DNA of 11,949 nt, taken from an uncultured Clostridia bacterium. GTDB lineage: Bacteria > Bacillota > Clostridia > Christensenellales > UBA1242. Below are positions 2,710-11,949 of the stretch, piece by piece; within the stretch, counting starts at the first letter, position 1, and each line of letters begins with the position of its first letter. A model generated the notes under the pieces. It had not been told where the DNA came from, searched no databases, and was given only the letters and a program-made list of their open reading frames with translations. The stretch is from assembly GCA_947631485.1 (NCBI GenBank), contig CANRLJ010000015.1, positions 1 to 11,949 of the forward strand. Direction: 5' to 3'. Position numbers and translations under genes: made by a program.

Positions 2710-2743
2710 AAAAAAAGAACCACAACAGCAGTTTGTGGTTCTT
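2710..2743 (-). terminator. Rho-independent terminator ending the phage-head operon
   Basis: Arms aagaaccacaa (2715-2725) and ttgtggttctt (2733-2743) form a perfect 11-bp stem with a 7-nt loop. On the minus strand the stem is followed by a run of seven U (complement of 2710-2716). It lies about 30 bp downstream of the stop of the last phage gene. The A-rich 5' side fits the minus orientation; it is unlikely to matter for plus-strand transcription because no plus-strand gene ends here. Confidence 0.9.
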
Positions 2744-2774
2744 CGTATGCATATTTATACATTTTTACAAATAA

Positions 2775-3041
2775 TTATTCGTCATTTTTGTCATCTTCGT
2801 CGTCGTCACTCTCTTCGTCTATGTCATCAACCTCATCGTTTGTGTTTGGTTTCTTGTCAGACAAACTGACAATTCCAAAAACGGCAAGAAAGCCGGCAAC
2901 AGACATAACACAATCCTCAACAACTTCGTTTTGAACTTCAAATCCAAAGGCCTTTCCAAGTGAAGTAAGCAGCATCACAAGTGCGGCAGACAAACTCACC
3001 CAAAAGCCATAAGATTTTATTCTTTTAAAAAAGTTCTTCAT
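2775..3041 (-). CDS. Phage holin-like protein with acidic tail (88 aa)
   Basis: It is a probable small membrane-permeabilising protein. Two transmembrane segments (about 13-28 and 45-60) flank a short loop, after a basic amphipathic start (MKNFFKRIKSYGFW). The layout and the FWVSL/GIVS motifs resemble the phi-LC3-type holin family; this is a recollection-based match. Residues 69-88 form an extreme acidic tail with 15 Asp/Glu of 20, where typical holins end in a few charged residues. I chose the ATG at 3041 rather than 3047 because GGGAGG directly abuts the 3047 ATG but is 6 nt from the one at 3041. The gene overlaps the preceding holin gene by 17 bp, is last in the operon and precedes the terminator. 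No endolysin is nearby. Confidence 0.72.
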   Translation of the reverse strand: MKNFFKRIKSYGFWVSLSAALVMLLTSLGKAFGFEVQNEVVEDCVMSVAGFLAVFGIVSLSDKKPNTNDEVDDIDEESDDDEDDKNDE

Positions 3042-3258
3042 GTTCATCCTCCCGATTTAATTGGTTTTTAATTTCTGTTATATCTTGTTTCACATCATCA
3101 AGCGTCTTCAAACTGTCCGTCAAAGTTTCGATGGTTTTCAAGTATTTGTTTTCCCGTTTCGAACTGTCTTTCAACTGATAGAAAAACAAAAAGACAAACA
3201 GTGTTGCAAAGATGCCGTTGCTGACAACAATGCTAACAATCTCTTTCCAAATATCCAT
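3025..3258 (-). CDS. BhlA/UviB-type holin-like protein (77 aa)
   Basis: The protein has one N-terminal transmembrane helix (about 7-28, hydrophobic stretch IVSIVVSNGIFATLFVFLFF), then a basic patch (KDSSKREN) and a long charged helix (about 38-70) likely to form a coiled coil. This architecture and length fit the BhlA/UviB family of phage- and bacteriocin-associated holins of Bacillota, in which the protein inserts in the cytoplasmic membrane and helps release the particle or toxin. The start codon lacks a clear Shine-Dalgarno and lies inside the preceding 38-aa ORF, so translation may be coupled. It overlaps the next holin-like gene. The family match is by pattern only. Confidence 0.75.
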   Translation of the reverse strand: MDIWKEIVSIVVSNGIFATLFVFLFFYQLKDSSKRENKYLKTIETLTDSLKTLDDVKQDITEIKNQLNREDEHEELF

Positions 3259-3349
3259 CTTTTTTTATGTCCAGCAAATTTTTAATCAGCCTTAGTTCTC
3301 GACTTCTATTTGCCTTTAAAAAGAGATTTGTATTGTCAAAAAATTTCAT
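3233..3349 (-). CDS. Possible coupled micro-ORF (38 aa)
   Basis: A short open frame starts at an ATG overlapping the TGA of the 497-aa gene (ATGA at 3346-3349) and ends at TAG (3233-3235), overlapping the start of the BhlA-like gene by 26 bp. The product begins MKFFDNTNLFLKANRSRELR and is basic, leucine-rich and probably helical in its second half. No Shine-Dalgarno is visible, so it would depend on termination-reinitiation. Evidence for a real gene is that it exactly fills the only gap between two operon genes and keeps the start/stop overlap seen elsewhere in the operon. Evidence against is its length and lack of a recognisable family. It may serve only to carry ribosomes to the weak downstream start. 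Confidence 0.4.
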   Translation of the reverse strand: MKFFDNTNLFLKANRSRELRLIKNLLDIKKDGYLERDC

Positions 3350-4839
3350 GACAACACATCATAAACAATCATTGGTTTTTGAATATAGCATTGTTGTTGA
3401 GTGGAAAAGATAAATTGAAAGTTTCTTCCGTAAATACAAGCTTTCTGGCGCTGTTCTTTATCTGAGGCATCAAAAGAATACATCTTTGTCTCCTCATCCG
3501 AAACAATCGTCAGCGTGCAAGGAAAATGTGTCGTCAAGACGATTTCTTTAATCTTTTTTCGCTTGCCTTTTGCGTTTAAATCGGTTTCAAATGAAGTCCA
3601 AGATTTTTCTGTTTCATCTCCGAAAATTGTTCCAGAATAATCAAGATAGCCTAGTCTTTGCGTGTAAACACTGTTAAAGCAAACACAAAGTTCGTTCATA
3701 AAAGGGCTGTCAATAGGCAGGATTTTTTGAACGTCAACTCCCCTGCAAAGATTCAGCGAAAATGTCTCTATGTCAAGTTCAAAAAGAGCGTTGTTTACAT
3801 ATTCTCCATTTTCGCACCCCACCTTAATTCCGTCATTAAAGTTGCATCTTGTTGCAAAATAAAACTTTCCGTTCAGGCAAGCAACTGCAGCCTTTTCGTT
3901 TTCCAAATTTTTGAAATAAACGTCATATTCTTCAGCTATTTTGCTTACAGAATTTCCGTTGAAGGCATACAGCCCGTCTCGAGTTGCAAAGAATATTCTG
4001 TCCCCGCAAACGCAGACGGTATTTTCATAGATTTTTGAAGGTGACCTATACAGATGAGTGAAGGAAAAATCATCATTTGCGGTGTAAATTGACAATTTTG
4101 TGATGCCAAACTCTCTGAATAAATATACATAATCATTAAAGGTAATCACCATGTTAAAAGTGCCGACATTGTCCAAAAACTCAATGGTTTTGCTGGCGCT
4201 GTCGTCCCACTCCAACAGGTTTTTGTTTTTTGTATAAACAAGTGTGTTTTGGTTTGTATTTGTGATTCCAAAAAAGTTGTCATAGTGAACGGCACAGGAA
4301 ATCATTGGAGGAACATTTTGATATTTTCCGTTTAAGCCAGAAAGAAATGCAATCATCCCGCTGCTTGTGAAAAACAAACTTGCGTCCTTGTTGTTCACCC
4401 TATAAAAACACTGATAGGTTGGATATGAAGGCAAGTCATATTGAGGAACAACAAAGAAGTTGTATTCGTTCACCAGAGGAATCCCCCAAAGTTTGTTTTG
4501 GCTGTCAATGACAAACAAACTGTATGTGTGACGCTTCAAGTTGTCGGAATACCAGCGATTCAGCCACATCCCACAGACCTTGTCCACAGAATCTGACAAA
4601 TCCACCAGATGCCTCTCGGGCCCTTCATAGTCTTCCATAACCGCAAACGGCTTGAAGCCTATGCCTGTCTTTAGCGCCCCGTCAACATAGGTCAGATTAT
4701 AAAAATTTTTACACTGGCAAGGTTGGCAAACATAGTCGTCCTTATTTGAAACAACACCCTCGTCGAAGATTGAAAACATCAAGTTTTTTTCTTTTGTTTT
4801 TGGATGTTTTTTCAGATTTTTATAGAATATCAAAGCCAT
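3346..4839 (-). CDS. Putative head-completion/tail-hub protein, gp10-like (497 aa)
   Basis: No family is certain. The length, the position after the neck-like gene and the composition (many short beta strands with aromatic and Gly/Asp turns, such as GDRIFFATRDGLYAFNGNSV, a blade-like repeat) resemble the packaged-DNA stabilisation protein gp10 of P22-like phages (about 470 aa), which joins the portal/neck to the tail needle. The resemblance also includes an FGITKLSIY segment at the place where gp10 has a similar strand. A cysteine cluster, CQPCQC, lies near residues 39-44. The gene overlaps the stop of the 184-aa gene by 10 bp. AAGGAG abuts the ATG at 4839 with no spacing, so the in-frame TTG at 4833, with normal spacing, may be the true start. 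No signal peptide is visible, which argues against a secreted or cell-wall protein. Confidence 0.6.
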   Translation of the reverse strand: MALIFYKNLKKHPKTKEKNLMFSIFDEGVVSNKDDYVCQPCQCKNFYNLTYVDGALKTGIGFKPFAVMEDYEGPERHLVDLSDSVDKVCGMWLNRWYSDNLKRHTYSLFVIDSQNKLWGIPLVNEYNFFVVPQYDLPSYPTYQCFYRVNNKDASLFFTSSGMIAFLSGLNGKYQNVPPMISCAVHYDNFFGITNTNQNTLVYTKNKNLLEWDDSASKTIEFLDNVGTFNMVITFNDYVYLFREFGITKLSIYTANDDFSFTHLYRSPSKIYENTVCVCGDRIFFATRDGLYAFNGNSVSKIAEEYDVYFKNLENEKAAVACLNGKFYFATRCNFNDGIKVGCENGEYVNNALFELDIETFSLNLCRGVDVQKILPIDSPFMNELCVCFNSVYTQRLGYLDYSGTIFGDETEKSWTSFETDLNAKGKRKKIKEIVLTTHFPCTLTIVSDEETKMYSFDASDKEQRQKACIYGRNFQFIFSTQQQCYIQKPMIVYDVLS

Positions 4840-5384
4840 CTCCTTTTTGGCATGATGTGCTCTCCATGTTTGCGACTGAGCATAAACAGACTTTGCTTAA
4901 ATCTTTCTTCCCAAATGTCCGCCTCTTCGCCAAGCCCATCGACAAGCAAATATTCACTTGCAACGCCATAGGCATAAACTCTTGCAGAAAGCCCACACAT
5001 AAACGCAACTTCGTCGTTCAAAGTCAAAGTTGCGGGCAGAAAACTGTATGTTATGCTTTTTGCACAGCCCTGCACCTCAACAAACTCTGGAAACAACTTA
5101 AATTTCAAATTAAAGCCAAATCTGTTTTTAACTTCATAGACATGCACCACTTTTTGCTTTAACTGTGAAAAGTTTATGATGGAATTTTTCACAGAAATTT
5201 CTTCGGTGGTTAAAAACGGCAAATAGTCGCTTGCAATCTCCTCGTTGACCAAGTTGAAGCATCTGACCATTGTGTCCAATTTTTCCTGTTCTCTTTCTGT
5301 GAAACTATCTGATGAAAGTTTGTTTAAGATTTCCTTTTCACCAACAAATTCACAAACCAATTTTAAAATATCTTTAACTGTCAT
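4830..5384 (-). CDS. Neck/adaptor-like head-completion protein (184 aa)
   Basis: It probably binds the portal ring from below, as gp4/gp6-type adaptors do; this is inferred from gene order (after coat, before the gp10-like gene) and from the fold suggested by the sequence. The N-terminal 55 residues are helical, residues 70-125 are strand-rich (VVHVYEVKNRFGFNLKFKL, ending LPATLTLNDE), and residues 126-170 are helical (ARVYAYGVASEYLL, WEERFKQSL). It ends with a basic PKRRWL motif. A longer frame is open to 5456, but the ATG at 5384 has an excellent ribosome binding site (AAGGAGAAACTTT) and fits the 11-bp overlap with the preceding gene's stop. I recall similar proteins in Clostridial phage-like loci but cannot verify that here. 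Confidence 0.6.
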   Translation of the reverse strand: MTVKDILKLVCEFVGEKEILNKLSSDSFTEREQEKLDTMVRCFNLVNEEIASDYLPFLTTEEISVKNSIINFSQLKQKVVHVYEVKNRFGFNLKFKLFPEFVEVQGCAKSITYSFLPATLTLNDEVAFMCGLSARVYAYGVASEYLLVDGLGEEADIWEERFKQSLFMLSRKHGEHIMPKRRWL

Positions 5385-5694
5385 AAAGTTTCTCCTTAAA
5401 GTCGTCCAAAACCTGTTTGACCACCATCTTCTCTCGCCTGGCATTGTGTTCGTCAATCATTTTGAAGATTTCGTCACTGTTGCACACCCTTGTCTTCAAG
5501 GCCAAATCAATCGTTCTCTCGTCGAGTGTGTCATACGGAATTGTCAAACAATAAGTCTTTTTCAGTTGATTGTGGCTGTGAAGTTCGAATGTGTTTTTGC
5601 TCAGATTTCTCACAACAAAATAACTTTTATCAATCGCTTTAAGGCGTTTTACGATGTCAAGGCAGTCACTTTTGATTTCAAACAACTCTCTCAT
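5374..5694 (-). CDS. Conserved-looking phage operon protein, unknown function (106 aa)
   Basis: I cannot assign a function. It is a small soluble alpha/beta protein: a helix at the start (FEIKSDCLDIVKRLKAID), a strand-rich middle (SYFVVRNLSKNTFELHSH, CLTIPYD) with a conserved-looking LDERTIDLALKTRV segment, and a charged helix to the end (about 75-106). Its place directly after the coat gene, 15 bp downstream, is where many phages encode head-decoration, connector or head-completion proteins. The start has only a weak ribosome binding site (GTGGTG), unlike its neighbours, which suggests lower expression than the coat. Its last codons carry the ribosome binding site of the 184-aa gene. Confidence 0.7.
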   Translation of the reverse strand: MRELFEIKSDCLDIVKRLKAIDKSYFVVRNLSKNTFELHSHNQLKKTYCLTIPYDTLDERTIDLALKTRVCNSDEIFKMIDEHNARREKMVVKQVLDDFKEKLYDS

Positions 5695-5709
5695 AACAAC
5701 ACCACGGAT

Positions 5710-6867
5710 TTATGCTTCAGGAACGGTTGTAGAAAGTCCAGTAACATGTCCCACACCAGATGGCTTATGGCAAAGAAGTTCAGTGTATTTGACAAGTGTA
5801 GCCGAAAATGCTGCTTTTGTTGGGTCTTGTTTCAAAACTCTGCCGCTTTCGTCCTCAAGCCACTTCCAATCACCAAGTTCATAGAAGACAAAATCGTTTG
5901 TGTTAAGGAAATAGCACTCGCCGTCAGCAACATAGTTTGTAGGAACAATAGGAGTTCCAAAATGAGTGATGACTTTCATGCCATCTTCCAAAGTTGTGTA
6001 TTCGATGTTTTTGTTGTAGATTGTCAAATATTTTTGATAGAGTCTTTTAAGTTTGTAAGAGCAGTTGATGAAGTTTACATTTGTTCCATTAACTTCAAGG
6101 TCGTCAATGATTGATTGAACATAGTCCTCGTCAAAAGCCTCTTCTGTGGCAGTGTAGTTTTGAGCGTTCATAACAGGATATTCCTCTCTGTTCACGCCAT
6201 AAAGGTCGCCCTTTCCAACAATCGCCTTCAAGCCCAAAATTTCGCAGTCCTTAGAGCCCTGAACATAAATTTTGTCGTTTGTTGTGATTTCCTCTTGTGT
6301 GTCAAGAACAATCTTTTTGGTATTGTAATCAACACTCTTTACTCTGACATTTTTTGCAACAGTTTTTGTCTCGTTGATTATGTCAACATACATGCCAGGA
6401 ACAATTCCACCAACATTGTCAACAGTGATGCTGCTTGAAGAGTTTGTCAGTTGCCCAAGAAGGCCTGTTCCGTCTCCATACAACATCCTTGAAAGATTGA
6501 AGATGCTGGCTTTTAAAAGGCTGTCCATCCCATCTTGCAAAAGATTTACAAAAGAGTTCACATCAGAAGAAGAGCAACGAATTGCCTTGTCGCTGATTTC
6601 AAACTTTCCATAAAGGTTTTTCAGTGGAGCAACAAATGAAAGATATGGCGTGTCAACCCCATTTGGAAGGTCGCTTGTTTCCAAGCCTGCCATCACCCCA
6701 CCGTTGATTCCGATTGGAGCAACAACTCGCACTTCTTTTCCAACAATGTTTCTGGTGCTTCTTTTTATTCTGCTGAAAAGTGGATTTGTTTTTGCGTTGA
6801 TTTGGTCAGCAATAACACCCAAATAAACGTCCTTAAGTACATTTTCTGCACTCTTTAATGTAACCAT
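5710..6867 (-). CDS. Major capsid (coat) protein, P22/HK97 fold (385 aa)
   Basis: This is the shell-forming subunit of an icosahedral head. The assignment rests on the order portal-scaffold-coat and on recognisable coat features: an N-terminal arm (1-45), a conserved GLETSDLP segment (61-68), a long helix (about 103-131) ending in MLYGDGTGLLG (128-138), a beta-rich insertion (about 145-208, with VPGMYVDI and DKIYVQGS) like the I-domain of P22-type coats, and a C-terminal segment (GDWKWLEDESGRVLK, then KAAFSATLVKYTELLCHKP) typical of Bacillota phage coats. At 385 aa it is somewhat shorter than P22 coat (430 aa). No protease gene and no cleavable delta domain are seen, consistent with protease-free P22-like assembly using the separate scaffold. 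The ribosome binding site is strong (AAAGGAGAAAAATT). A deletion or frameshift is not evident, so the protein should be able to fold. Confidence 0.9.
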   Translation of the reverse strand: MVTLKSAENVLKDVYLGVIADQINAKTNPLFSRIKRSTRNIVGKEVRVVAPIGINGGVMAGLETSDLPNGVDTPYLSFVAPLKNLYGKFEISDKAIRCSSSDVNSFVNLLQDGMDSLLKASIFNLSRMLYGDGTGLLGQLTNSSSSITVDNVGGIVPGMYVDIINETKTVAKNVRVKSVDYNTKKIVLDTQEEITTNDKIYVQGSKDCEILGLKAIVGKGDLYGVNREEYPVMNAQNYTATEEAFDEDYVQSIIDDLEVNGTNVNFINCSYKLKRLYQKYLTIYNKNIEYTTLEDGMKVITHFGTPIVPTNYVADGECYFLNTNDFVFYELGDWKWLEDESGRVLKQDPTKAAFSATLVKYTELLCHKPSGVGHVTGLSTTVPEA

Positions 6868-6879
6868 AATTTTTCTCCT

Positions 6880-7515
6880 TTAATCTAAAAGTTCAAGCAC
6901 AATCCTCTTGGCATCTTCAAATGTGTCTGGCTTGTTTGCAACTGGTTTTGTCACAGTTTCGCCAGCATTTGAAGAAATTGTGATGGGTGCGCTTTGTTTT
7001 TCAAGTTTTTTCATGTAGTTTTCGATGACCATCTTTTGCAGTTGGTCGTCATTTAGTATTAAGTTTTGCACGAGAGGCTCTTTTGCCCTGTCAACGCTGG
7101 ACAACTTTTCATACAATATGGTTGCCCAAACTTGGTCAAAGTTTGCCTCACCGCCTTTCTTTTCGCCCAAGCGAGAGCGTATTTCCTCCGCGTATGGACA
7201 AGCCTCTGTTGTCCTTGAAAGGAACGACTTAAAGTCCTCCTCAAATTTGTCGGTTTCTTTATTCGTTTTCTCTTTCTCCAACTCAGAAAGTCTTTGGCTT
7301 TTTCTTGTAAATTCAGCCTGAAGATTGTTGTAGGCATCGTATAGGTCGTTTACATTTTTAAATTTTCCCAAAGGACTGCCCTTTTCCGCTTCACCCAGGA
7401 CGCCTTGCAACTCCTCTTCCGTTTCTGGAGAGCCCTGCATGTCTTCTTCAACAGCATTTTCTTCTGCCAAAGGTTTGACATTTTCTGGTTGTTCTCCACT
7501 CATTTCTTCGTTCAT
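6880..7515 (-). CDS. Capsid scaffold protein (211 aa)
   Basis: It probably acts as an internal scaffold that directs coat assembly and leaves afterwards. It lies between portal and coat, as in P22-like head modules. The first 45 residues are acidic and disordered-looking, residues 50-82 (GKFKNVNDLYDAYNNL through ELEKE) form the best-conserved-looking segment and lead into a coiled coil (to about 95), and the rest is helical. The C-terminal helix (TFEDAKRIVLELLD) is the place where scaffolds usually bind coat, though here it is acidic. A strong ribosome binding site (AAAGGAGAATAGTT) precedes the ATG, and only two bases separate it from the portal stop. It has no protease motif. Confidence 0.82.
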   Translation of the reverse strand: MNEEMSGEQPENVKPLAEENAVEEDMQGSPETEEELQGVLGEAEKGSPLGKFKNVNDLYDAYNNLQAEFTRKSQRLSELEKEKTNKETDKFEEDFKSFLSRTTEACPYAEEIRSRLGEKKGGEANFDQVWATILYEKLSSVDRAKEPLVQNLILNDDQLQKMVIENYMKKLEKQSAPITISSNAGETVTKPVANKPDTFEDAKRIVLELLD

Positions 7516-7517
7516 AA

Positions 7518-9356
7518 CTATTCTCCTTTAATTTCTTTGTGTGCTCTTATATGCTTCAAAAATCTTTCTTCAATCTTCTTGTCAACCGCTTCCCCAGAGT
7601 ATAAGTTTTTAAGCATAAAGGAAATGTGCTGATTTATGTGAATATCGTGCTGGTCAATCTCCTTAACCTCAACATCTTTGCCAGAGGCAAGTTTCAAATT
7701 CTCCGCATCCGCATTTTTGGTGTGTAAATCGTTTAAATCCACAGGATTTTCCCAAAGACCAAAACCCAAATTTTCCAATATCTTTGTCTTCATTGAGTTT
7801 GTAATCTTTCCGCTTTCATCACACAACAACCCTCTGTCCAAAAGTGAGAAAATCAAATTCCTGCGCTGTGGCAAAGTGTCGTTTGTCTCGTTGTCGGTGT
7901 CAAACTGCACATCATCACTTGTGATTTCGCTTCCTCTGAAATATGAGATGTCAAGATTGCCGTTTTCCCCAACAATCTTAATAAGCCTTGGAAATGTTGC
8001 GTATTGCTTATAAAGCCTCAGGATGTGTTTTGCCATATTTTTTATGGCATTTTTCATGCTGTCAGTGGTGAACTTCAGCCTTGTTTCATTTTCATCAATC
8101 AAAAGTTCAAGTGCAACACCACTCATTGCTGAAATGCTTTCCATCGTTCCGATGTCGCTTGTGCCACTGAGAGAAAAGAATTCTTTTAAAAGCCTCTCCT
8201 CTTCCTTTTCAAAGTCCACAGGCAGTTGTTCCTCACCCAAAAACTGAGGAGAATTTGACCCTTGTCTGTAAACAAGCACTTTGCCCGGTGCCAAGCCCTC
8301 TTCTTCAAGATTGTCTATGTCAACACTTCCGTCCTCAACAGTCAAAACGCCCATTGTCAGTCTGTTTAGATATTCATGCTTTCTGTTTTTGACTGCATTA
8401 TAGGCACGCTGAATAGGAATAAGCCTTTCAATCATGCTGACGCCCCAAAAACTTCCAATTTCCTCATTGCATATCTGTTTGATGAAAGGAAATTCTCTTT
8501 TGCCGTCAATGCCGTTGAGATATGGCATTTCTCCGTCAAAGACCAACTTATCCCCGGCAATGATAATCAGTCTGCCATTTGGAAATTCCTCATTTGGCCT
8601 TATGTATTTTTCAAGGACAATGGCAGAGTTCTTTTTGGTGGTCTCAATAAGTTTTGTCGCAAGCCCAAAATATCCAAGTCCGCCCAAAGAGGATGACACG
8701 CCGTCAAGCGAATAGACATTTATGTCATGCCCTTCCACGTCCACGCCATAGTTTTGTTTTATCTGTGAAACTGTGTAGGCCTTTGCGTGAATAATGCTTT
8801 GGCAATCTTCAAGATTTTGGTGTGTCGAAGTGTCGGGATATATTTCAAAAGGCGAGCAAACGCTGATTTCAACATCTCCCGTTTTGACTTTCCTTCCGTT
8901 GTCCTCAATTGCCACAACCTGCCCCAAATTGGAGTTCCACGAAACTTTATAAAAACTTGTTCCGCAGATTTCGCTCCACATTGTTGCCTGATTTATCTTC
9001 TCAGAAAGGTTCATCTTGCCTGTAATCGAACTTAAAATCTTTCTTCCCACCTTTGCTGTGTATAAATCTTCCTCATCGTTTGTTGCAGGAATAATGTGCA
9101 TCTTTGGTTTGATGTTTGAAAGTTTTGAAAGCCTAATGTCAATGATTGGTGCAATGTGATTAAAGACCTCCCTCTCCTGCCAGAAAAACTGCTTGTCCAC
9201 CTCTCTGACAAATCCGCCATAGCCGACATCACAAAATTGGTTGCCCATATAAAAATTCATGTTCATCTGCCAGCGACTGTCAAAACTCTTTCTTTCTGCA
9301 ACTCTGTTTTCAAAATCCTTTAATGTTTCTTTTACAATGTTGTTGTCCTTTTTCAT
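7518..9356 (-). CDS. Phage portal protein (612 aa)
   Basis: It forms the dodecameric ring at one capsid vertex through which DNA enters and leaves and to which terminase and neck proteins bind. Features include an N-terminal helical region (1-45), wing/stem segments with VFNHIAPIIDIRLSKLSNIKP (about 83-103), a central block GSFWGVSMIERLIPIQRAYN, the stem and crown helices around SGTSDIGT and ALELLIDENETRLKFT, and a C-terminal DQHDIHINQH motif (568-577) typical of P22-like and related Bacillota portals. The length is a little below P22 portal (725 aa), within the range of the family. Its ATG overlaps the stop of the preceding gene (ATGA) and has a strong ribosome binding site (AAAAAGGAGAAAGT). 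All segments appear intact. Confidence 0.9.
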   Translation of the reverse strand: MKKDNNIVKETLKDFENRVAERKSFDSRWQMNMNFYMGNQFCDVGYGGFVREVDKQFFWQEREVFNHIAPIIDIRLSKLSNIKPKMHIIPATNDEEDLYTAKVGRKILSSITGKMNLSEKINQATMWSEICGTSFYKVSWNSNLGQVVAIEDNGRKVKTGDVEISVCSPFEIYPDTSTHQNLEDCQSIIHAKAYTVSQIKQNYGVDVEGHDINVYSLDGVSSSLGGLGYFGLATKLIETTKKNSAIVLEKYIRPNEEFPNGRLIIIAGDKLVFDGEMPYLNGIDGKREFPFIKQICNEEIGSFWGVSMIERLIPIQRAYNAVKNRKHEYLNRLTMGVLTVEDGSVDIDNLEEEGLAPGKVLVYRQGSNSPQFLGEEQLPVDFEKEEERLLKEFFSLSGTSDIGTMESISAMSGVALELLIDENETRLKFTTDSMKNAIKNMAKHILRLYKQYATFPRLIKIVGENGNLDISYFRGSEITSDDVQFDTDNETNDTLPQRRNLIFSLLDRGLLCDESGKITNSMKTKILENLGFGLWENPVDLNDLHTKNADAENLKLASGKDVEVKEIDQHDIHINQHISFMLKNLYSGEAVDKKIEERFLKHIRAHKEIKGE

Positions 9357-9562
9357 ACTTTCTCCTTTTTGTTTTTAAATGGTGATTTCACCGCTTTTGG
9401 AACAATCGTCTTTGAAAAACAGTCATACATCTTTTTCATGCAGTCCTCACAAAAGACAATTTCTCTCCTGATAAACCCCTTGGTGCTGAAGGCATATTTT
9501 GCCATGTTCTTGCAGCCATAAAAATCGCATTTAAGTTGGTTTTTACAAATTTCCATCTTCAT
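9353..9562 (-). CDS. Small four-cysteine, zinc-finger-like protein (69 aa)
   Basis: Two cysteine pairs, C12-X4-C17 and C38-X2-C41, are spaced as in treble-clef or zinc-ribbon folds and would hold one zinc ion. Between them lie basic and hydrophobic residues (FIRREIVF), and the C-terminal 20 residues are lysine-rich, so nucleic-acid or protein binding is plausible. The function is unknown. It occupies the position where a large terminase subunit would normally be encoded, but is far too small to be one and has no Walker motif. I chose the ATG at 9562 (7 nt after GGAG); ATG 9565 is nearly as good, and the longer frame to 9580 starts before the ribosome binding site. It overlaps the upstream gene by 20 bp and the portal by 4 bp. 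Confidence 0.65.
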   Translation of the reverse strand: MKMEICKNQLKCDFYGCKNMAKYAFSTKGFIRREIVFCEDCMKKMYDCFSKTIVPKAVKSPFKNKKEKV

Positions 9563-9839
9563 CATCTTTCTCCTTTTCAATTAAAAGTTTAATAAGGCGT
9601 TCTTTTTCGGCAAGAAGTTGTTTGTCGGTCATGTTCGAAATGTCATCGTCCGAAAGTTGTGATTGTTCCAACAAAAATCTTAAGGCGTTCAAGTCCGGAG
9701 GATTTGATTTTTTTGTAATCTTCCTCTTGGACAAGATTGGCTTTCCGTTTTCGTCGGCGGTGTATTCTTCCACAATCTCATCGCTTTCAAATCCCAACGC
9801 TTTTTTCAACAATGCCTGCTTTATTTCTTCTTCCTTCAT
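9543..9839 (-). CDS. Small terminase-like protein lacking the DNA-binding half (98 aa)
   Basis: It is the first gene of the head operon. Residues 1-50 contain ALLKKALGFESDEIVEEY, a NGKPILSKRKITKK linker, and NPPDLNALRFLLEQ (from about 47), a pattern resembling the C-terminal part of small terminase subunits of Bacillota phages, where (A/G)LG...EE...NGK...K.PPD.(T/N)A precedes the end. The usual N-terminal helix-turn-helix is absent. The remainder is an acidic/basic charged helix. The similarity is by memory, so an unrelated conserved protein is possible. A ribosome binding site (AAAGGAATT) precedes the ATG at 9839, and a promoter candidate lies 28 bp upstream of it. Confidence 0.5.
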   Translation of the reverse strand: MKEEEIKQALLKKALGFESDEIVEEYTADENGKPILSKRKITKKSNPPDLNALRFLLEQSQLSDDDISNMTDKQLLAEKERLIKLLIEKEKDDEDGNL

Positions 9840-9866
9840 AATTCCTTTCGCTTTTAACCTGCCCTA

Positions 9867-9896
9867 AGTGTAATTCGACAAAAATCGGCAAATCAA
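9867..9896 (-). promoter_or_regulatory. Candidate promoter of the phage-head operon
   Basis: On the minus strand, TTGATT (9891-9896) and TACACT (9867-9872) are spaced by 18 bp, ahead of the 98-aa gene. Both boxes are two mismatches from consensus, so the promoter would be weak or need activation. It lies back to back with the ABC-transporter promoter, 16 bp apart. No other better candidate is visible in the intergenic region. Confidence 0.4.
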
Positions 9897-9912
9897 CAAC
9901 AAATGCCAAAAA

Positions 9913-9941
9913 TTAACAAATTTCGATGTGCAAAATACAAT
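9913..9941 (+). promoter_or_regulatory. Promoter of the ABC transporter operon
   Basis: TTAACA (9913-9918) and TACAAT (9936-9941) are spaced by exactly 17 bp. The predicted start near 9948 leaves a leader of about 13 nt that includes the ribosome binding site (GAGGG) of the ATPase gene, so there is no room for a riboswitch in the transcript. Confidence 0.65.
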
Positions 9942-9947
9942 GTATTT
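9933..9947. promoter_or_regulatory. Operator-like palindrome over the -10 box of the ABC promoter
   Basis: aaataca-a-tgtattt is a perfect 7-bp inverted repeat around one central base. It covers the -10 box and the predicted transcription start of the transporter, so a dimeric repressor bound there would block RNA polymerase. The site also lies within about 40 bp of the phage-operon promoter candidate. A regulator gene is not visible in the window, and A/T-rich palindromes can arise by chance. Confidence 0.4.
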
Positions 9948-9960
9948 GTAGAGGGCAAAT

Positions 9961-11521: not shown

Positions 11522-11949
11522 TCATCTCCAAGAAAGATATACAAACAGCATAAAAATGCCAAAAACACTTGAAATTGGATACAAAAAAGAAACAATCTTA
11601 GAAAAGCCCAAAACGCTTATGCACAAAGGCAAAAGAACAGCAACAAGCGTGGCAGTAAGATTGTTTTTAAACACCTTTTCAAAGGCGGATTTAAGATTGA
11701 AACAAAGCGAAATCAAGGTGGTGAAACAGCCCACCAAAATGACGAAATAGCAAAGCACAAAGAAAACAGCATTTTGGCTTGCAATGGCAAGAAACGGCAT
11801 GGCACTGTCAAGCATGTCACCATTTTTGATAAGCACAAAATTTCCAAAGAACAAAAAGACAAAAATCAAAAAAGCGGAAATGAGGCTTGCCCAAAAGGAT
11901 TGTTTTTTCGAAAGTTTTGTGCCCGCTTTAGAGATGATAAGCCCCTCCA
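11522..11949 (-). CDS. C-terminal part of a polytopic membrane protein, YkvI-like (partial)
   Basis: The frame stays open to the right edge, so the N-terminus is missing; 141 residues are visible. There are about four hydrophobic segments: residues near 20-36 (WASLISAFLIFVFLFF), a second after LDSAMPFLAIASQ, a third around NNLTATLVAVLLPLCISVLGF, and a last one near the end. The EGLIISKAGTKLSKKQ start and the GFSKIVSFLYPISSVFGIF segment resemble the YkvI family of APC-like membrane proteins related to spore-germination permeases. That match is tentative, and the substrate is unknown. It is convergent with the ABC permease gene, with a 9-bp gap. Confidence 0.6.
   Translation of the reverse strand, partial: EGLIISKAGTKLSKKQSFWASLISAFLIFVFLFFGNFVLIKNGDMLDSAMPFLAIASQNAVFFVLCYFVILVGCFTTLISLCFNLKSAFEKVFKNNLTATLVAVLLPLCISVLGFSKIVSFLYPISSVFGIFMLFVYLSWR

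Follow-up and report, generated by a model that had tools for sequence, protein, structure and literature searches.

Genes of the head-and-tail operon

The DNA analysed here (the window, 11,949 nt) makes up the whole of contig C15 in a metagenome-assembled genome (MAG; 780 kb, 76.6% complete; G000 in our numbering of genomes) of an uncultured Clostridia bacterium from the order Christensenellales. Ten open frames on its minus strand (2775-9839), with short gaps or overlaps between most of them, form a phage-like operon (Table 1), which is flanked by polA on one side and by an ABC transporter on the other. The best NCBIfam matches of the transporter side include taurine transporters, all below the cut-offs. 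We regard it as probable that this operon encodes the head and tail of a podovirus-type particle resembling gene transfer agents (GTAs), which has been inherited mainly vertically in Christensenellales since early in the order. For the genus of the window, the best reading is that the GTA-like unit is split into two loci.

A preliminary description of the window had proposed a phage-head operon with its own candidate promoter and terminator between host-type flanks, devoid of large terminase (TerL), tail and integrase. The operon itself proved to be real: portal, coat and the two holins are matched by protein families, the frames are open on the minus strand, both flanks are of host type and a terminator is present. 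Neither TerL nor an integrase was detected among the 15 window genes scanned against family libraries. The predicted scaffold protein is indeed conserved between portal and coat, but its name relies on this position, because the family scans gave no confident match. The same scans gave no confident match for the 75-aa Cys-rich protein, which carries the label ZnR in our analysis. Genes were called with a simple longest-ORF procedure, which may pick antisense frames, mostly in higher-GC genomes, and family labels such as C3, C14 and C33 denote clusters defined in the analysis itself.

The assumption that a tail is missing did not hold. The AlphaFold2 model of the 208-aa protein found its best Foldseek matches in podovirus tails and head-to-tail adaptors (7wmp, 2.0e-5; 9nwi, 3.5e-5). 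For the 497-aa protein the best match was 9nwi (3.9e-21, TM score 0.73), and the P22 tail was also matched (9jg6, 3.8e-12; 8u10) at about 10% sequence identity. A sequence profile of the nozzle family yielded nothing convincing when compared with the PDB. Judged by these modelled folds, the proteins previously described as neck-like and gp10-like are a podovirus-type head-to-tail adaptor and tail nozzle, and thus a short tail is encoded. The adaptor may start at 5384 instead of 5456, since close relatives, among them those in the loci L031 and L032, measure about 184 aa and the model has low confidence at residues 8-21. No tailspike or needle was recognised in the window.

The first gene of the operon had been left unnamed. 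According to sequence comparisons its product is a remnant of the small terminase subunit (TerS) without the DNA-binding helix-turn-helix (HTH) domain. In six sister proteins the phrog_309 match begins only at position 195-201, and a full-length TerS of another Clostridia genome (L353) matches positions 136-287 and, with its residues ~30-97, several DNA-binding families. The 19 relatives in loci of the order (85-128 aa) align with the C-terminal part of full-length TerS. In 16 of these 19 loci TerL ends at most 71 bases from TerS, which leaves no space there for a separate HTH gene.

Table 1. Features of the operon and its surroundings in the window, in the direction of transcription; the 42 loci are those from genome contigs.
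Feature	Position	Strand	Basis
10-base motif GATTTTTGTC	9877..9886	(-)	also upstream of the distant TerL gene (G000:C16)
Predicted TerS remnant, 98 aa, first gene	9543..9839	(-)	phrog_309 positions 196-244 of 319, E 4e-4
Small Cys-rich protein (ZnR), 75 aa, between TerS and portal	9353..9580	(-)	matched in 39/42 loci
Portal protein, 612 aa	7518..9356	(-)	PF16510 2e-21; phrog_156 4e-37
Scaffold protein (by position), 211 aa, between portal and coat	6880..7515	(-)	position and match in 42/42 loci
Major capsid (coat) protein, 385 aa	5710..6867	(-)	NF033394 184.6 bits (cut-off 80); phrog_14242 1e-44
Conserved 106-aa protein, between coat and adaptor	5374..5694	(-)	matched in 40/42 loci; relatives also in likely phage contigs
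Predicted head-to-tail adaptor, 208 aa as listed	4830..5456	(-)	AlphaFold2 pLDDT 88.4; Foldseek podovirus tails/adaptors
Predicted tail nozzle, P22 gp10 / T7 gp12 type, 497 aa	3346..4839	(-)	AlphaFold2 pLDDT 88.0; Foldseek podovirus nozzles
BhlA-type holin, 77 aa	3025..3258	(-)	PF10960 1.4e-16
Phage holin, 90 aa	2775..3047	(-)	PF04531 22.7 bits (cut-off 22); phrog_297 4e-9
Intrinsic terminator at operon end	2714..2744	(-)	12-pair stem and T run

The large terminase and candidate co-regulation

The absence of TerL holds for the window but not for the genome. Profile searches with phrog_2 and PF03237 revealed a strong, full-length TerL in the same MAG (G000:C16:3603-4913, 478 aa), on a contig separate from that of the head operon. 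The earlier argument that no missing part could lie beyond the window edge was not confirmed either, the window being a whole contig: in three genomes of the same genus (G106, G086, G109) TerL is located 6.5-7.1 kb upstream of the portal gene, with ABC genes between them. In five further genomes of the genus (G043, G053, G058, G080, G130) the TerL and portal modules reside on one contig at a distance of 40-105 kb. Weak additional phrog_2 matches inside long frames were taken for helicases and excluded, and PF03237 with its cut-off was used instead.

Out of 77 distinct TerL sequences, 72 are full-length. In the alignment columns all 72 are identical at Walker A (G, R, K), at Walker B (DE) and at the nuclease positions D289, D351, D433 and D437. 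A preceding regular-expression count, which found all five motifs in 49/72 sequences, undercounted the nuclease sites and was replaced by the alignment columns (72/72 each).

On C16, TerL adjoins a frame for a putative ABC substrate-binding protein. A neighbour in the opposite orientation is weakly SH3-like (PF08239, 0.09 in the own MAG and 1.6e-4 in L150, both below cut-off). Another neighbour is a regulator resembling RinA/ArpU and sigma-70 region 4 (phrog_36, 5e-10; TIGR01636, 1.3e-4, below cut-off). Integrase, repressor or replication genes were not detected among the six C16 genes scanned, and no genome-wide search for them was made. In the genus of the window, TerL adjoins a frame of ~850 aa whose product seems to be secreted and anchored in the membrane (L093:940-3492), and a similar frame sits between TerL and TerS in L098. 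The genome G046 harbours a second, different TerL (G046:C5:49506-50729; phrog_2, E 7e-50), which suggests an ordinary prophage there.

The predicted promoter was not recovered, as a scan of 9840-9960 gave no sigma-70 match on the minus strand. What this region contains is the motif GATTTTTGTC, a sequence of uncertain meaning, whose presence upstream of TerL on C16 is suggestive of a promoter element common to both operons. The 10-base form occurs once within a gene in each of the two contigs, in C15 at 11858-11867. The octamer TTTTTGTC was found upstream of TerL in 10 of 24 stretches (expected 0.47) and upstream of TerS in 8 of 41 (expected 0.80). On the opposite strand it was found in none of these (0/24 and 0/41), and upstream of nine other genes in 2 of 307 stretches. 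This distribution suggests co-regulation of the TerL and TerS operons; the enrichment is suggestive only, since the motif was picked from the same data in which it was counted and the genomes are related.

Distribution, chromosomal position and descent

The portal gene is present in 281 of the 309 genomes of the window's family in the GTDB taxonomy, in 41 of its 42 genera and in 177 of the 190 better genomes, mostly with one match each. Three portal frames among the matches listed have an internal stop. When 20 of the 28 portal-negative genomes were re-tested with a coat profile, six had a coat gene and 14 did not. For TerL we used 60 genomes of the family, picked for quality, breadth and portal-negative status and including the own MAG, and PF03237 exceeded its curated cut-off in 56 of them. 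The four TerL-negative genomes (G072, G115, G147, G184) are also portal-negative, although G115 has a coat gene that is truncated by the end of its contig, and every portal-positive genome in the sample has TerL. Four genomes contain TerL without a portal match, two with coat (G059, G187) and two without (G046, G138). The family also includes Candidatus Caccovivens faecavium (L055), whose genus is placed by PMC8035907 in family UBA1242 of the GTDB R95 order Christensenellales, ranks that could have other names in later releases of GTDB.

In the order as a whole, the TerL profile matched 321 of 396 genomes. By manual tally of the E-values, without per-family denominators, 244 of these matches are strong (E <1e-63) and 77 weak (E >1e-60). 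Strong matches occur in f1 (the window's family), f3, f6, f8, f10, f13, f14, f15, f17, f19, f20, f21, f25, f27, f29, f30, f32 and f33. Among the matches listed, f2, f4, f5, f7, f11, f12, f16, f18, f22, f24, f26, f28 and f31 have weak ones only. TerL, portal and coat share one stretch at 18 of 20 TerL neighbourhoods from other families, the 18 coming from nine families and the two exceptions being contigs of 7.4 and 11.1 kb. In these nine families TerL is directly upstream of the head genes in one unit of ~11 kb. Its consensus gene order is regulator, SH3-like protein (opposite strand), TerL, TerS, Cys-rich protein, portal, scaffold, coat, 106-aa protein, adaptor, nozzle, C33, BhlA and holin, and some loci miss single members. 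In the class, the portal profile matched 31 of 291 genomes, of which 11 lie outside the order and match at E <1e-100.

Some loci depart from this pattern. The portal frames of L109 and L110 (genera g41 and g23) are only 489 and 350 aa long, and in L110 scaffold, adaptor and nozzle are shorter too, which may reflect reduction or another lineage. L354 (G249) and L278 contain two coat genes in tandem within one unit. In three genomes of the family f76 (L343-L345) a lone portal-like gene, with no TerL or coat match nearby, stands beside a similar reverse-strand gene row, and in L346/L347 there is another locus, which does contain TerL, portal, scaffold and coat.

The chromosomal position is largely fixed among close relatives. 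Both flanks, polA and the ABC ATPase, are kept in 33 of the 42 loci; five loci are cut by contig ends and four differ, with L052 and L064 retaining the ABC side only and L071 and L072 neither flank. In the more distant loci L147, L150 and L155, ten cluster and flank proteins were scanned; the matches include threonyl-tRNA synthetase, a pseudouridine synthase, RtcB, a SpoU methylase and YfhO, two proteins had no match, and no integrase was among the ten. In the loci read, neither integrated prophages of full length nor att sites at the borders of the unit were seen, no search having been aimed at att sites.

Median dN/dS values (Nei-Gojobori, pairs with dS 0.1-1.5) are 0.148 for portal (52 pairs) and 0.289 for coat (594), the flank values being 0.202 for polA (93) and 0.119 for the ABC ATPase (68). 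The maximum for any such pair in any of 15 genes is 0.787. In the four closest pairs the values are 0.027-0.053 for portal and 0.066-0.182 for coat, and 0.046-0.052 for polA (three pairs). Distances of portal and polA correlate with r=0.91 (n=32) and those of coat and polA with 0.73 (n=33) in the window and L031-L070, although linkage could contribute, polA being adjacent. A comparison was also made with the unlinked rpoB in 29 genomes from ten families; the own MAG has no rpoB match. The splits in common with rpoB are 12/26 for portal, 13/26 for TerL and 8/25 for coat (permuted maxima 3, 2 and 2), and the distance correlations are 0.52, 0.45 and 0.41, respectively.

Among close relatives two coat types are found, one in L052 and L054-L070 and the other in the window, L031-L051 and L053. 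Mean distances between versus within types are 0.54 and 0.30 for coat, 0.35 and 0.27 for portal, and 0.61 and 0.45 for scaffold. By sequence, this looks like a capsid-scaffold allele switch.

Interpretation and known systems

Taken together, the near-universal and mostly single-copy presence in the family, the largely fixed site among close relatives, the low dN/dS, the trees that agree in part with rpoB and the lack of a DNA-binding domain in TerS strengthen the GTA-like reading, one of several offered in the preliminary description. The unit appears to be a long-kept short-tailed particle of small-genome gut bacteria, which would package and ship their own DNA. What the data show is its gene content, conservation and position, the intact catalytic residues, the shortened TerS and a TerL within the same MAG. 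For its life cycle we infer how it is regulated, that particles form and take up random host DNA, that lysis sets them free and that recipients obtain the DNA. The RinA/ArpU-like regulator beside TerL would turn on the two operons, which are apart in the window genus. Coat and scaffold would then assemble a small head on the portal, and the TerS remnant, devoid of its DNA-binding domain, would allow TerL to begin on host DNA with no need of a pac site and to fill the head. Adaptor and nozzle would close the head with a short tail, and the holins might help particle release through lysis of the producer. Going further, we lean towards an ancestral podovirus-type GTA of Christensenellales, independent of the alphaproteobacterial ones. 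It may have been kept through genome reduction to ~1 Mb because exchange of random host DNA in particles (repair or recombination) outweighs the cost of losing a minor part of the cells to lysis. Its terminase would have become promiscuous when TerS lost the domain for DNA binding.

Several observations weigh against this reading. The family f1 is monophyletic for rpoB but for none of portal, TerL and coat; monophyly is also lacking in f6 for portal and TerL and in f20 for portal and coat. Thus, the congruence of the trees is partial and some exchange must have occurred. The fairly complete genomes G046 and G138 have TerL without portal or coat match, and the fairly complete genomes G072, G147 and G184 lack all three genes, so the locus is not essential. 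ComEC and DprA, present in 26/27 and 27/27 genomes, do not track the locus; as they are found with or without it, they are uninformative as recipient genes. No endolysin or receptor-binding gene was recognised among the proteins scanned, and no genome-wide search was aimed at either. Finally, genomes of the window genus have no C33 (in L099 a match to PF25588) or only a shortened one: none of the 16 tested has a full gene and two (G053, G058) have a piece of ~100 aa, as compared to 7 of 10 genomes with C33 outside the genus.

It is unlikely, in our opinion, that the domesticated particle packages host DNA without transferring genes and instead kills relatives or lyses its producer, as PBSX-like particles do. 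The retention of two holins and a tail nozzle would suit such a role, as would ComEC and DprA not tracking the locus, and the same doubt is voiced for the Faecalibacterium element FpGTA in PMC12946183. On the other hand, the scan of the window genes revealed no toxin, lysin or fibre, none having been sought genome-wide, and nuclease and motor of TerL would not be kept intact unless the packaging of DNA is of importance. The proposal of an empty-capsid locus with a new, DNA-independent role we find hard to credit: the catalytic residues of TerL are intact, all portal-positive genomes of the sample have TerL, and a set of portal, adaptor and nozzle would chiefly be needed for DNA to pass. The unlinked TerL module in part of the window genus and the two genomes with TerL and without portal or coat could be taken in its favour.

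A satellite origin was rejected once TerL had been found in the same MAG. Phage satellites such as the phage-inducible chromosomal islands (PICI) and their relatives are mobile and depend on the packaging or structural genes of a helper. The lack of TerL, integrase and replication genes in the head operon of the window had made the borrowing of a helper's terminase conceivable. This now has practically no probability left, as the unit has its own coat, a largely fixed location, a vertical signal and its own cognate, conserved TerL, which other genera and families have beside the head genes.

Repeated re-acquisition of a temperate phage, or of its remnants, at favoured sites is very improbable too, but part of the data would fit. 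Likely phages share the portal-scaffold-coat block, tree conflicts and the change of coat type testify to some exchange, and flanks vary between families and in 4 of the 42 nearer loci. Temperate prophages carry linked integrase, repressor and replication genes, and such genes were not found among the scanned proteins of the window, C16, L147, L150 and L155. The unit is moreover mostly single-copy in the family, sits between polA and the ABC genes in 33/42 loci, and its portal distances follow polA (r=0.91). Its presence is not sporadic, and no linked full prophage was seen in the loci read.

The likely phages are five IMG/VR contigs of 37.6-60.6 kb (L319, L320, L322, L324, L325) with portal, scaffold, coat and 106-aa protein and a portal identity of 34-37%. 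TerL in the stretch examined is absent or reaches at most 103 bits, versus more than 800 in the loci of the order. We took these contigs for phages. A single-sequence portal search of IMG/VR gave no match, which reflects its limited sensitivity, because profile searches did match. Many close IMG/VR matches are short contigs with the same cluster and were not counted as phage evidence. Indeed, many contigs filed as viruses (among L193-L207 and L273-L317) carry the chromosomal cluster, and upstream gene lengths in L200, L207 and L277 are about equal to those of the MAG locus L099. The listing of such loci as viral is a warning for the use of this database. Searches of INPHARED gave 12 records for portal and 12 for coat, none of which reaches 27% identity. 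Among the closest are the Arthrobacter phages Brad, Jasmine and Adat (Jasminevirus; portal 24% identity, E 8e-37; coat ~26%, 4e-15). The gene order of Brad is similar (terminase, two hypothetical proteins, portal, one hypothetical protein, coat), whereas these phages from soil have genomes of 45 kb with a lysin and many other genes. The P22 tail machine resembles the unit in the predicted folds of nozzle and adaptor and differs by its low sequence identity and by tailspike and needle, neither of which was recognised in the window.

If the GTA-like reading is correct, particle-borne gene exchange is a stable and ancient trait across a large part of the gut microbiome, and many species become available for studying how a phage terminase turns promiscuous. 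We found no description of the locus in the open-licence PMC literature. By its genes, the unit uses proteins derived from tailed phages (portal, coat, TerL, adaptor, nozzle). It is fully endogenised, with chromosomal flanks and, in part of the window genus, an unlinked TerL module, and it is mostly vertically inherited with co-diversification of the host, tree conflicts remaining. RcGTA has long-tail machinery, from which the P22-like portal (PF16510) and the podovirus adaptor and nozzle set the unit apart by type. Similarities to RcGTA (Rhodogtaviriformidae), BaGTA and BhGTA (VSH-1) are the mostly vertical inheritance, the frequent distribution over several loci and TerS without DNA-binding domain, according to PMC9662315 and PMC11841831. 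The latter states for all known GTAs that TerS lacks a detectable DNA-binding domain, and judged by sequence families this applies to the TerS of the order loci. The definition of GTAs in PMC9662315 includes that mostly random host DNA is encapsidated, that the head is too small for the own genome to be packaged in full and that DNA is delivered to other cells.

By description, the closest published case is FpGTA. In PMC12946183 (January 2026) it is named as the first GTA-like element from the microbiome of the human gut and also as the first whose morphology is podovirus-like, the few GTAs studied in detail being mostly from Alphaproteobacteria. The paper also mentions GTA-like packaging in genera of Christensenellaceae (HGM11616/HMG11616, QANA01; 3 of 25 events), no gene locus being named. 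Genomes of the families f48 and f42 have only weak portal similarity (22-32 bits), and their TerL-portal loci were examined as possible FpGTA; in f48, five genomes (L400-L404) share a conserved TerL and a weakly similar portal, possibly a further GTA-like element, perhaps FpGTA itself. As portrayed in the same source, FpGTA I and II have an operon of 10.5 kb that encodes TerL, portal, scaffold, coat and further phage proteins, along with a TerS in which no DNA-binding domain is obvious; replication genes are absent, and one strain has a second operon ~125 kb away (PMC12946183). The Christensenellales unit is alike in podovirus type, approximate operon size and gene set, TerS and split loci. 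It differs in that FpGTA belongs to another order and its particles were examined by electron microscopy, proteomics and DNA sizing, and in that the Christensenellales unit is seen in ten families of one order.

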